Shown piece by piece: positions 33,661 through 39,301 of a stretch of 64,000 nt of DNA. The position numbers and the translations under genes were made by a program. The number at the start of each line of letters is the position of its first letter. Position 1 is the stretch's first letter. The notes below the pieces were generated by a model, which was not told the DNA's origin, searched no databases, and saw nothing but the letters and a program-made list of their open reading frames with translations. Origin of the DNA: a candidate division KSB1 bacterium (GTDB lineage Bacteria; Zhuqueibacterota; Zhuqueibacteria; Residuimicrobiales; Krinioviventaceae); contig JAXHMJ010000003.1 in NCBI GenBank assembly GCA_034521575.1, positions 558,001 through 622,000 of the forward strand. Direction: 5' to 3'.

Positions 33661-34014
33661 GTCATTCATCTCCTGAATGATTAATGACTTTTCAAAAAAA
33701 CAATTTCAGGCCGTCTCCCAACAATTCATACAATTATCATGCCATGGCAGTATATTCTGATGTACAAGAATGCCTGCTTGTTCTCAGTAAGGGAATAGAC
33801 TGTTTATAAACAACTTGTAGGAATTTAGACAGGCTACTATGCTTTTTAAATTCTTATGGTTGGTGAACAGTGCGAATATTTTTCACCCCTGATGTTTTAT
33901 TTTCGTACCCGTTGATTTTATGTGATGCGAACTTTTTACTCATTTTTCACCTTTTTATTGGAATTTTTTACCGGGTTTCGTAAGTTATATTGATTTTACG
34001 AATGAGGTTCAGTC
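33661..34014. other. intergenic region upstream of the ilv-leu leader
   Basis: AT-rich 354-base divergent spacer, presumably holding promoters for the ilv-leu operon (+) and the hypothetical gene (-). I see no clean sigma-70 pair and no ORF. Confidence 0.5.
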
Positions 34015-34140
34015 ATGTCCTGTTATGATAAACGACATATCATGATGATTCACGGGGAGTTTGTGAATTCCTCTAACAGGATTGTTGTGTCTCTACTGCT
34101 ATCCCTGCTATCCATCCTAGGTATTATCACTGTACGATAA
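34015..34140 (+). CDS. putative branched-chain leader peptide of the ilv-leu operon
   Basis: This 41-codon ORF has a good ribosome-binding site (GAGG, seven bases before the ATG) and ends 65 bases before ilvD. Residues 23-40 (IVVSLLLSLLSILGIITV) include 13 Ile, Val or Leu out of 18, exactly the end-products of the operon behind it. That is the hallmark of amino-acid attenuation leaders such as ilvL. The last codons overlap a small hairpin, ATTATC with GATAAT (about 34122-34141). I could not find a classical GC-rich terminator before ilvD, so the mechanism is open. The alternative is a one-helix membrane microprotein. Confidence 0.55.
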   Translation: MSCYDKRHIMMIHGEFVNSSNRIVVSLLLSLLSILGIITVR

Positions 34141-34205
34141 TTTCCCTGATTTGATAAATTTCTGTTGTTCAGATTGGGTCTTTGAATAAAACAAAAGAGG
34201 ATCTC

Positions 34206-35886
34206 ATGAGGTCAGATACAGTTAAAAAAGGAATTGAAAGAGCGCCGCACCGCAGTTTGCTGCGGGCTACAGGGTTAAAGGATGAAGACTTTGAAAAGCC
34301 GTTTATCGGCGTGCTGCAATTCCTATATTGACATTATTCCGGGTCATGTGCATTTACAGGAATTCGGTCGCAAGGTTAAAAAATCGGTGCGTGCCGCCGG
34401 AGGTGTGCCGTTTGAGTTCAACACGATCGGCGTTGATGACGGGATAGCTATGGGCAATTTCGGAATGCGTTACAGTCTGCCGTCGCGCGAACTGATTGCT
34501 GATTCGGTGGAAACCGTGGTCAATGCCCATCAGCTGGATGCGCTGGTCTGCATCCCCAACTGTGACAAGATTGTGCCCGGCATGCTGATGGCAGCCGCTC
34601 GTTTGAATGTACCGACGATCTTTATCTCCGGCGGTCCCATGGCAGCGGGAAAACTGCCGGACGGCAGCAAAGCGGATCTGATCAGTGTGTTTGAGGGGGT
34701 CGGTGAACTCAAGGCAGGGAATCTTTCCGAAGAAAAACTGATCGAGCTTGAAAAAGCGGGATGTCCGGGATGCGGCAGCTGTTCCGGTATGTTTACAGCC
34801 AACAGCATGAACTGTCTCTGCGAGGCGCTGGGTATCGCACTGCCCGGCAACGGCACGATACTGGCCATTGATCCGGCCCGCGATCAACTGATCGAGCAGG
34901 TGGGCGGCCGCATTATGGAACTGGTGGAACGCGACATCAAGCCGCGTGATATTATGACCCGGGACGCGTTTCATAACGCGTTTTGCCTGGATCTGGCCAT
35001 GGGCGGTTCGACCAACACGGTTCTGCATACCTTTGCCATCGCACGGGAAGCCGGCATAGAACTTGATCTGCGCGAACTGAACAAACTGGCCAAACAGGTG
35101 CCGTATATCTGCAAAGTGTCTCCCGCCACAAAAACGGTTCACATTCAGGATGTGGACCGGGCCGGCGGTATTTCCGCGATTTTGCATGAATTGTCGCAAA
35201 AGCAGCTGCTTTTAAAGACTGACTGTATGACGGTTACGGGACAGACATTAGGAAACAATATCAAAGACGGTAACGTCCTGGACCGTGAGGTTATCCGTTC
35301 CCTGGATGACCCCTATGCGCCCACCGGCGGTCTGGCTATTCTCTACGGCAATCTCGCGCCGGAAGGCAGCGTCATTAAAACCGGCGCTGTGCATCCGGAC
35401 ATGTGGGAATTTTCCGGTCCTGCAAGAATCTATAACTGCGAAGATGACGCCATTCAGGCGATCTATGACGGCGATGTGGTGGCCGGCGATGTGGTGGTCA
35501 TTCGTTATGAAGGCCCGAAAGGCGGTCCGGGCATGCCGGAAATGCTGTCACCGACTTCTGCGGTTATGGGGCGGGGACTGGGGAAACAGGTGGCGCTGAT
35601 CACAGACGGACGTTTTTCCGGCGGCACCCGCGGCGCCTGCATCGGGCATGTGAGTCCCGAGGCCGCGCAACGCGGACCCATTGCCGCACTGCAGGAAGGT
35701 GATACGATCCATATTGATCTGAACCGCCAGCGTCTGCAGGTGGACCTGTCCGATGCTGAAATTGAAAAACGGCTCAAAGCTTTGCCGCCGTTTAAAGCCA
35801 AAGTCAAAACCGGCTGGCTGTCGCGTTATGTGCAGCATGTTACATCCGCGCACACCGGGGCGGTTCTGGAAACCCATGTAACCTGA
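34206..35886 (+). CDS. ilvD: dihydroxy-acid dehydratase, one frame change
   Basis: The true start is ATG 34206 after [26 protein letters not shown], then FEKPFIGV. One extra C at about 34314 breaks the frame; without it the sequence runs [13 protein letters not shown], the family motif with the first cluster cysteine. The rest (from 34282) is intact: [11 protein letters not shown] with the second cysteine, [19 protein letters not shown] with the third, and [22 protein letters not shown] near the end. The restored length of about 559 residues is normal. IlvD dehydrates dihydroxy-isovalerate and -methylvalerate in valine, leucine and isoleucine synthesis using an Fe-S cluster. It leads an operon with leuC and leuD. 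Confidence 0.93.
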
Positions 35887-36074: not shown

Positions 36075-37482
36075 ATGTCCAAACCAAAAACAATGTACGA
36101 AAAAATATGGGATGAGCACTGTGTGGTGCAGGAACTCAATTATCCCGGAGTTCTGTATATCGATATGCATCTTATTCATGAAGTCACGTCGCCCCAGGCG
36201 TTCCAGGGCCTGCGCGATAAAGGCAATAAAGTACGCAAACCTTCACAAACCATGGGGACCATGGATCATTCAATCCCGACAACAGACCCGAATATCCCGA
36301 TTCAGGATAAACTGGCTGCGGCGCAGATTAATAAAATGCAGGAAAACTGCGGCGAGTTCGGTATCCCCTTACAAAGTATGGCCAGTGAGAACCGCGGGTT
36401 GTGCATGTACCATCGGCCCGGAACTGGGTCTGACCCAGCCGGGCATGACGATTGTCTGCGGTGACAGCCATACCGCCACGCACGGGGCTTTCGGCGCCCT
36501 GGCCTTTGGTATCGGCACCAGTGAGGTGGAACATGTGCTTGCTACCCAGACGCTGCTGCAAAGTAAATCCAAAACCATGAAAATCAATATTGATGGGTCT
36601 CTAACTGACGGCGTGCTGGCCAAAGATATTATTCTGGCATTGATTGCCAAAATCGGCACGGCAGGCGGCACCGGTCATGTGTTTGAATACACCGGCTCTG
36701 CCATCCGTGCGCTGGACATGGAAGGACGTATGACGGTTTGTAATATGACCATTGAAGCCGGCGCCCGCGCCGGAATGATCGCTCCGGATGACACAACTTT
36801 TGAATACTTGAAAGGCCGGAAACACGCGCCACAAGGCAAAGACTGGGATAAAGCCGTGGCGCAGTGGAAACAATTGCCCTCAGATCCCGGCGCTGAATAT
36901 GATGCGCAAATCGCATTGAATACCGATGAACTTGTACCCATGATTACGTTCGGCACCACCCCGGATATGGCTGTGCCTGTGGACGCCCAGGTCCCCGATC
37001 CGGCAGCGGCACAGGATAGCAACAAGCGTAACACGCTGGAAAAAGCGTTGCGTTATATGGGGCTGACACCGGGACAAGCGATGCTCGGACAAAAAATCGA
37101 TGTTGTGTTTATCGGTTCCTGTACCAACGGCCGTATAACCGATCTGCGTCAGGCCGCATCGATCTTGAAAGGACGCAAGGTCTCCGATCAGGTGCGCGTG
37201 CTGGTGGTGCCCGGGTCACAGCAGGTCAAACAGCAGGCGGAATCCGAAGGTCTGGATCAGATTTTCAAGCAAGCCGGCGCTGAATGGCGGGAAAGCGGCT
37301 GCAGCATGTGTATTGCCATGAATGGTGATGAGATTGCAGCTGGTGAATACGCTGTATCCACCAGCAATCGCAATTACGAAGGACGCCAGGGCAAAGGCGG
37401 CCGCACCTTTCTGGCCAGCCCCCTGACCGCTGCAGCTTGTGCGGTAAACGGTGCGGTATCTGATGTGCGTACGTTTTTATAA
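36075..37482 (+). CDS. leuC: 3-isopropylmalate dehydratase large subunit, frame change
   Basis: Two frames (36075-36464 and the latter part of 36112-37482) together give a 469-residue LeuC, the normal length. The N-terminal part has [14 protein letters not shown] and MDHSIPTTD. The second resumes with [21 protein letters not shown], then [16 protein letters not shown], and the cluster-binding cysteines in [15 protein letters not shown] and [11 protein letters not shown]. The frame changes by one base net within 36396-36412, inside the conserved GIVHVIGPE segment. With LeuD it isomerises 2- to 3-isopropylmalate in leucine synthesis. It begins 36 bases after the ilvB remnant and is followed by leuD. 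Confidence 0.93.
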
Positions 37483-37508
37483 ATAATTAATGAAATGATG
37501 AGGTGATT

Positions 37509-38117
37509 ATGCAACCCTTTAAAGAATTGAAAAGCAAATATGTGGTTATTCCCTCCAATGATATCGATACGGATCAGATTATGCCGGCGCGTTTCCTCAA
37601 AGTCACGGATAAAAACGGATTGGGAGATAATGTGTTTTACGATTGGCGGTACGAAAACGATGGTACGCCCAAATCTGATTTTATTCTGAATCAACCGCAA
37701 GCCAAACAAACCGGGATTCTGGTGGCCGGAGACAATTTCGGCTGCGGCTCCAGCCGTGAGCATGCGCCCTGGGGATTGGTCGGCTATGGATTCCGGGCGG
37801 TCATCAGCACCAGTTTTGCAGATATTTTCAAAAACAATGCGTTGAAAAACGGTCTGCTTCCGGTAGAAGTGGATGCGGTGACTTTGAAGAAACTGTTTGA
37901 ATCCGCTGAAAACGGCATTGGTCCGGAGTTAAAGATTGATCTCAAAGAACAGACCGTGGTTTGTCCGGACGGCACATCACAGCAATTCCCCATCGATACT
38001 TTTTCCAAAAATTGTATGCTGGAGGGTATTGATCAACTCGGATATTTGATGCAACAGATGCCGGCCACTGAGAAATATGAGCAACTGCATGAACAGCGTG
38101 TGAACACGCTGGCCTAG
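37509..38117 (+). CDS. leuD: 3-isopropylmalate dehydratase small subunit
   Basis: The ATG at 37509 sits after GAGGTG; a GTG six bases earlier is possible. The 202-residue protein has the LeuD swivelling domain: IPSNDIDTDQIMPARFLK, the substrate loop DNFGCGSSREHAPW near 80-95, and the ISTSFADIFKNNALKNGLLP motif. It partners LeuC encoded immediately upstream. A terminator closes the operon. leuA, leuB, ilvC and ilvN are not in the window. Confidence 0.96.
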   Translation: MQPFKELKSKYVVIPSNDIDTDQIMPARFLKVTDKNGLGDNVFYDWRYENDGTPKSDFILNQPQAKQTGILVAGDNFGCGSSREHAPWGLVGYGFRAVISTSFADIFKNNALKNGLLPVEVDAVTLKKLFESAENGIGPELKIDLKEQTVVCPDGTSQQFPIDTFSKNCMLEGIDQLGYLMQQMPATEKYEQLHEQRVNTLA

Positions 38118-38170: not shown

Positions 38171-38256
38171 AGAGATTCAGAGATATCCTTCTGATGCTTG
38201 GTCCAGTTTTGTGAATGTGTAAGGAAAAAATTTGTACTATGGGAAAAGGATGTTTT

Positions 38257-39301
38257 ATGACTCGAACCACATTATTGTTGTTTCTTGTGATGACCGCAGT
38301 CTTGCTTTCAGTTCAGTGTGATACCGGCTCTACCGGACCATCCAAAGAAAGTACAAGGGTCTATGTCACTCCCACCGGACACATTGAAGGTGGCTTGTAT
38401 TATGCACAATGTGACAATTATTTAGAATACCGCGATAAACTCCTGGTATTTGCACGGCTTTTACATCAATACGGGGTACCGTTTAACCTGCAAATCGATT
38501 ACCAGTTTTTAAAAGGCGCGCTGAATTGTGAAACCCCGGAGATGCAGGCGGAAACCGGTGGTACCAACGTCATTGATTATATTGCTTCTGAATATAACAT
38601 CCGCATTGATGCCCATCAAAGCGGAGGATATGAAGAAGGTCCGGAAAATTACGCGGATGTCCGCTTTCTTGCAGGGCAAGTGACCTCGCATGTCACGGAA
38701 AATGTTGGGGGTGTCATATGGAATCAGCCGGAGCAGTTTATCCGCCTGAATAGGAGAAACAGGCTGGTTGCATAAGGAGTTTGTCTGGAGCCCCGATATT
38801 TTAACCATGGGGGTTCATTTTAATCATCATCTCGGTGATTTTTCAGAGGATGACATGACCTCCGGCGTATGGCGTCCCAAAGGGTTTGGCAAAGATTTTT
38901 ATAATCATGATGCTGAAAAGCGTATGATCTATATTGCACCCGGCGGACATCACACGGACTGGTCGGAAAGCGGTGATTTTCCGTTTGCGTCAGTGGCGGA
39001 TTATGTAGAGGTGCTGGTGGATTATATTGATCGCGGGAAAATTCCGGCCGGACAGCTGTACACGGCGACCCTGGCGGTGCCGCAGTCTGTTATTTTTGAT
39101 CAATCCAAACATGAAAAATTAGCGGATCAATTCAAACAGCTTGCCGCTTTGGTGGGTCAGAGACGGGTGGTCTATGCTCATTTTCAGGAGATTGCTGATA
39201 TCTGGCAGGAAACCTATGATGGAGACCCCACGATGCTTTCGTTTGATGCCATTAATGAACAGGACTATACCCGGGTTGATCCGGATACCAAACAAAAATA
39301 A
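38257..39301 (+). CDS. lipoprotein with deacetylase-like fold features, one frame change
   Basis: The ATG at 38257 has AAGGA upstream and a lipoprotein signal with lipobox LLSVQC. Two frames (to about 38752, then 38768-39301) join when one A is dropped near 38752: RLNGETGWLHKEFVWSPD. The 347-residue product has a disulfide-prone, His/Asp-rich mature part (TPTGHIEGGLYYAQCDNY, RIDAHQSGGYEEG, MGVHFNHHLGDF, APGGHHTDWS). The pattern is reminiscent of the deacetylase/GH57-like seven-stranded barrel, but I do not recognise a defined family. It is convergent with the TauE-like gene. Confidence 0.65.

Follow-up and report, generated by a model that had tools for sequence, protein, structure and literature searches.

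A candidate branched-chain leader peptide upstream of ilvD in a KSB1 bacterium and a terminator-less leader arrangement in its phylum

The short ORF upstream of ilvD in the window (the whole 64,000-nucleotide stretch of DNA analyzed here) probably acts as the leader-peptide sensor of the ilvD-(ilvB remnant)-leuC-leuD operon, a reading to which we assign a probability of roughly 0.85. Its assignment to the leader system is based on its peptide, its rare codons, its position and its relatives. More tentatively, with confidence somewhat short of even, we propose that this FCB-group phylum may control its ilvD and ilvB operons by ribosome stalling at a terminator-less, three-segment switch that gates Rho, and its trp and his operons by attenuators with intrinsic terminators.

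Results

Leader ORF and operon

The sequence-only reading had described a 41-codon ORF with a ribosome-binding site, ending 65 bases 5' of ilvD, in which 13 of the 18 residues from 23 to 40 are Ile, Val or Leu (ILV). The coordinates were confirmed (34140 is the last base of the leader stop, and the ATG of ilvD lies at 34206), a GAGG motif is present upstream, and a recount of the residues agreed (Table 1). When the 400 nt upstream of ilvD were dinucleotide-shuffled, an equally ILV-rich ATG ORF arose in about 1% of cases. Besides ILV density, codon choice gives a second, independent sign of a leader: CTA, the rarest Leu codon in the window's genes (2.8% of 471 Leu codons), makes up 4 of the 6 Leu codons of the leader ORF (binomial p=8.3e-6). 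Rare CUA codons for Leu are a feature of the leuL leader. A permissive Rfam search (up to E=1) of the window stretch and 12 relatives returned no match to a T-box, riboswitch or other leader family.

Table 1. Features of the putative leader region and the operon behind it (window coordinates)
Feature	Position	Strand	Remarks
GAGG, Shine-Dalgarno-like, of leader ORF	34004..34007	+	7 nt 5' of ATG; from sequence
Leader ORF	34015..34140	+	41 codons plus stop; C-terminal half ILV-rich; product MSCYDKRHIMMIHGEFVNSSNRIVVSLLLSLLSILGIITVR
Candidate regulatory codon run, residues 23-40, IVVSLLLSLLSILGIITV	34081..34134	+	includes 4 rare CTA codons
5' arm CCTGATTTGA of weak post-stop hairpin	34145..34154	+	possible counterpart of region 2 in relatives; not significant alone
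3' arm TCAGATTGGG of weak post-stop hairpin	34169..34178	+	possible counterpart of region 3
AGAGG, Shine-Dalgarno of ilvD	34196..34200	+	from sequence; preceding UCUUU can pair with AAAGA (weak, fold)
ilvD (dihydroxy-acid dehydratase)	34206..35886	+	one-base frameshift near 34310-34316; ORFs 34182-34331 and 34282-35886
ilvB remnant, 46 codons	35898..36038	+	N-terminal residues joined in one frame to C-terminal VFPMVPSGAAVRDML
leuC	36075..37482	+	split by frameshift near 36464; ORFs 36075-36464 and 36112-37482; synteny
leuD	37503..38117	+	ORF list; synteny

Gene order behind the leader varies among relatives: two (G002 and G004) have ilvD-ilvB-leuC-leuD with a full ilvB, and a third (G001) has ilvD-leuC, with ilvB lost completely. 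In the window an ilvB remnant lies between ilvD and leuC, and the same genome carries a split ilvB on contig C4. The sequence-only reading was silent on the ilvD frameshift, as it was on the weak post-stop hairpin. Pseudogenization of the operon, which the frameshifts in ilvD and leuC might indicate, was rejected as the first explanation because the ilvB on contig C4 and unrelated genes in the window are split too. Assembly indels are therefore the simplest cause, and this pattern suggests that the ilvD and leuC frameshifts are errors of that kind. The gene at 38215-39301 is also split by a frameshift, at about 38770.

Conservation and position in the phylum

Across 82 genomes of the window's phylum, an ILV-rich ORF was found 5' of ilvD at all 20 loci in other orders and at 8 of the 13 loci in the window's own order, where the other 5 were without a leader; this amounts to 28 of 33 ilvD loci over all orders. 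Where ilvB heads its own operon, as it does in the window's order, 12 of 14 loci have an ILV-rich leader, and where ilvB is located behind ilvD in one operon, none of 14 does. Such ORFs were present at 1 of 30 leuA loci in the phylum and at none of the 30 trpE or 30 hisG loci. The ORF is thus present in relatives and associated with the leading gene of branched-chain operons, which contradicts both of the findings that the sequence-only reading had named as fatal to its model, namely absence from relatives and conservation away from ilv/leu genes.

ILV-richness, combined over 36 loci, departed strongly from shuffles (Fisher p=1e-32), and CTA accounted for 90 of the 499 Leu codons in the phylum's leaders, with 17.9 expected (z=17.6). 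Leader sequence and length differ widely among relatives, in which up to 252 nt separate the leader stop from the gene start; the ILV bias, the CTA bias and the position are kept. Taken with the position specificity, this conservation and the CTA bias support the original interpretation of the ORF as a branched-chain leader peptide. The window's ilvD has its closest named relatives in Calditrichia, Caldithrix and Neomarinimicrobiota MAGs, which fits an FCB-group origin. Elsewhere, ILV-rich leaders with classical terminators lie 5' of ilvD in Anaerolineae, Gemmatimonadota, Desulfatitalea and others (L039, L049, L072, L092, L108).

RNA pairings

In most relatives, a segment that starts directly 3' of the leader stop (region 2) pairs over 10-20 bases with a segment 30-50 bases downstream (region 3). 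With 16 loci in a common register, the 2:3 helix has two-sided changes in 10 of its 15 pairs; paired cells make up 86.7%, compared with at most 44% when the partner was slid by 1-3 bases; since the loop was swapped for a short linker in this alignment, the covariation counts cover the helix only. The last leader codons (region 1) also pair with region 2. Against a null of shuffled codon order, the mean z for 1:2 pairing was -1.75 over 32 ilvD leaders (Fisher 3e-16), the strongest being L002, L111, L016, L015, L121, L125, L122, L024 and L017 (z -3 to -6.5), and -1.94 over 14 ilvB leaders (Fisher 1.6e-8). In its topology, the predicted 1:2 / 2:3 arrangement in relatives matches a classical attenuator.

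Region 1 of the ilvB leaders in the window's order is CCTCTTGC (codons such as AAC CTC TTG CTC). Region 3 has the same sequence, and the post-stop segment GCAAGAGG is complementary to both; an exact-pattern search for this switch matched 4 of 22 genomes, the pattern being too strict. The 2:3 loop in relatives contains 6% G and 27% C, with 19% G in the leaders on one flank and 23% G after region 3 on the other. Depending on the locus, region 3 lies about 5 to 232 nt from the gene. Region 3 pairs weakly with the ilvD or ilvB Shine-Dalgarno sequence (mean z -0.85, Fisher p 1e-4), and the signal for 3:4 pairing is also weak (p 9e-4). At L008 and L012, the 2:3 hairpin is separated from ilvD by long inserts (148-173 nt) that contain inverted repeats. 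The window's genome holds a second branched-chain leader, 5' of its ilvB operon (G000:C4:75002-76718; L192, L193): its peptide tail reads ...NIIVLPLVIINLLLLK, the ilvB region 1 sequence given above lies within the leader, and the loop of its 2:3 hairpin is 47 nt long without any G.

At the window's own ilvD leader, 1:2 pairing was not detected (z=+1.1), and the post-stop hairpin, long-range pairing and the whole fold were no better than shuffles. A G-poor, C-rich stretch is not distinct within the 65-nt spacer. The pairings were likewise not detected in most other ilvD leaders of this order.

Intrinsic terminators

Terminators were scored as a single hairpin of -12 kcal/mol or lower followed by a T-rich tail. 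A scan of the window's leader for intrinsic terminators found none, and of 46 branched-chain leaders from the phylum and its near relatives, 3 passed (L009, L012, L020). In contrast, the test was passed by all 20 Trp-run or His-run leaders 5' of trpE and hisG in the same phylum, the window's genome included, and by 5 of 5 ilvD leaders of other phyla (Anaerolineae, Gemmatimonadota, Desulfatitalea and others). Since terminators do occur in the phylum's trp and his leaders, the lack of them is specific to the branched-chain operons and not to the lineage. The suspicion that the window's leader lacks a GC-rich terminator and may use some other mechanism also extends to the phylum as a whole, with the trp and his leaders as an internal control.

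Discussion

Ribosomes translating the leader ORF probably sense charged tRNAs for Leu (mainly the CUA-reading one), Ile and Val, such that a shortage would stall the ribosome in the ILV codons and raise expression of the operon; we infer both this starvation response and its direction. In most of the phylum, region 1 would pair with region 2 unless a stalled ribosome covered region 1. Judging from the geometry and from established attenuation, a stall on region 1 would free region 2, and the 2:3 helix could then form across a G-poor, C- and A-rich loop of 30-50 nt. The 1:2 state would leave the G-poor stretch open to Rho, and the 2:3 state would close it. The window's short ilvD leader may work by the same switch, although 1:2 pairing is undetectable there.

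Rho-dependent termination appears to be the likeliest readout of such a switch, followed by occlusion of the Shine-Dalgarno sequence, though we hold the role of Rho as effector only tentatively, at a little under even odds. Rho is favored on three grounds: the switch would expose or close a stretch that contains C and is poor in G, region 3 lies at widely differing distances from the gene, and Rho is encoded in the window's genome (main copy at C5:1214068). We know of no consensus for rut sites. A second, weaker Rho homologue (414 bits, under the family cut-off) is encoded at G000:C5:2188875-2189993.

Alternatively, control could be exerted on translation: the transcript would always be full length, and free region 3 (UGACCUC- or CCUC-like) would cover the ilvD or ilvB Shine-Dalgarno sequence until stalling shifted region 3 into the 2:3 helix. 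The lack of intrinsic terminators would suit this mechanism, region 3 pairs with the Shine-Dalgarno sequence slightly above shuffles and strongly at L045, L013, L004, L005, L154 and L121, and in the window the UCUUU beside the hairpin can mask some of the Shine-Dalgarno sequence. However, most loci are without this pairing, a spacing as variable as that between region 3 and the gene is hard to reconcile with a direct sequestering stem, and the G-poor loop would be left unexplained, so that we regard translational control as unlikely, if still the main competitor. Ordinary transcription attenuation through weak, unconventional intrinsic terminators, with a short 3:4 hairpin and a distant U tract, seems less plausible again. 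Several loci allow a short 3:4 hairpin, slightly above shuffles, and three leaders pass the terminator test, but at -12 kcal/mol that is 3 of 46 branched-chain leaders versus every trp, his and outgroup ilvD leader tested, and the window's leader yielded no terminator on scanning.

It is very improbable that the ORF instead aids ilvD translation by re-initiation or encodes a small membrane protein. The peptide is hydrophobic, and re-initiation between leader and gene has been proposed earlier (PMC4833913), but re-initiation peaks at about 10-14 nt from stop to start (PMC4833913), far below the 65-nt gap in the window or the gaps of up to 252 nt in relatives; moreover, sequence and length vary while the ILV and CTA biases and the position persist. 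That a hydrophobic ORF arose by chance in AT-rich leader DNA is the least credible reading, since the roughly 1% of shuffled upstream regions that reach the same ILV density must be set against conservation, position specificity and CTA bias.

Most established cases of leader-peptide control over branched-chain synthesis come from Gammaproteobacteria and Actinobacteria; leader control of ilvD looks widespread beyond these two phyla usually named. The arrangement described here resembles the gammaproteobacterial ilvL/leuL/trpL-type attenuators in having a short leader ORF with cognate codons 5' of the operon's first gene and, in relatives, 1:2 and 2:3 pairings that exclude each other and are placed around the leader stop. 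It differs from them in lacking a 3:4 intrinsic terminator with its U tract, in the length (30-50 nt) and G-poverty of the 2:3 loop and, at the window locus, in the undetectable 1:2 pairing. A leader peptide without an intrinsic terminator is also found in E. coli tnaC, for which Rho-dependent termination is established; tnaC responds to free Trp by way of its nascent peptide, unlike the codon starvation proposed here. The mycobacterial cys-operon leaders likewise have no terminator, and Rho-dependent termination has been proposed for them, but no conserved hairpins or alternating pairings were found there (PMC1262725), whereas alternating pairings are present in the relatives studied here.

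Actinobacteria have uORFs rich in branched-chain amino acid (BCAA) codons 5' of ilv operons, for which ribosome-mediated attenuation has been proposed, and candidate terminator hairpins with poly-U runs have been described in their ilvB leaders (PMC1262725, PMC10272879, PMC11857589). These leaders and the Corynebacterium ilvB-II motif share the BCAA-rich uORF with the present system but differ in their terminators, gene order, structure and phylum, and the present leaders have no Rfam match. Actinobacterial leuA carries the LEU element, a pseudoknot in which Leu codons base-pair with the gene's Shine-Dalgarno sequence (PMC1262725); like it, the present system has a run of Leu codons in the leader, alternative pairings and no terminator, but here the leader codons pair with a segment after the stop and not with the Shine-Dalgarno sequence. 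The ilvD motif of Veillonella and the ilvB motif of Leptospira are candidate cis-regulatory RNAs from one genus each (PMC8632094, PMC10272879). Both lie 5' of ilvD or ilvB, and the Leptospira motif has a BCAA-rich uORF, but their structures are different, they are restricted to their genera, and little covariation has been reported for them. In the parts of the open-access literature accessible to us, we found no paper joining leader peptide, attenuation, ilvD and Bacteroidetes, though the comparative attenuator survey of Lopatovskaya et al. 2010 (cited in PMC4833913) may contain an earlier prediction for some FCB species.

Branched-chain leader control would be recurrent in an FCB-group phylum, alongside Trp and His leaders, and the terminator-less switch offers a directly testable model. 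With trp and his leaders that carry terminators and ilv leaders that do not, a single genome provides a natural experiment in reading out a stalled ribosome without an intrinsic terminator. The trpE of the window's genome (G000:C5:589236, L203) lies behind a Trp-run leader, NNANFWWWWTFITRCATGK, that carries two strong hairpin-poly-U terminators, and most trpE loci of the phylum have Trp-run leaders with terminators like it. About 6.7 kb past the end of the window, hisG (G000:C3:628678, L248) lies behind a His-run leader, MYCHHHSHHHHSKILSGGG, whose terminator is of the textbook kind.
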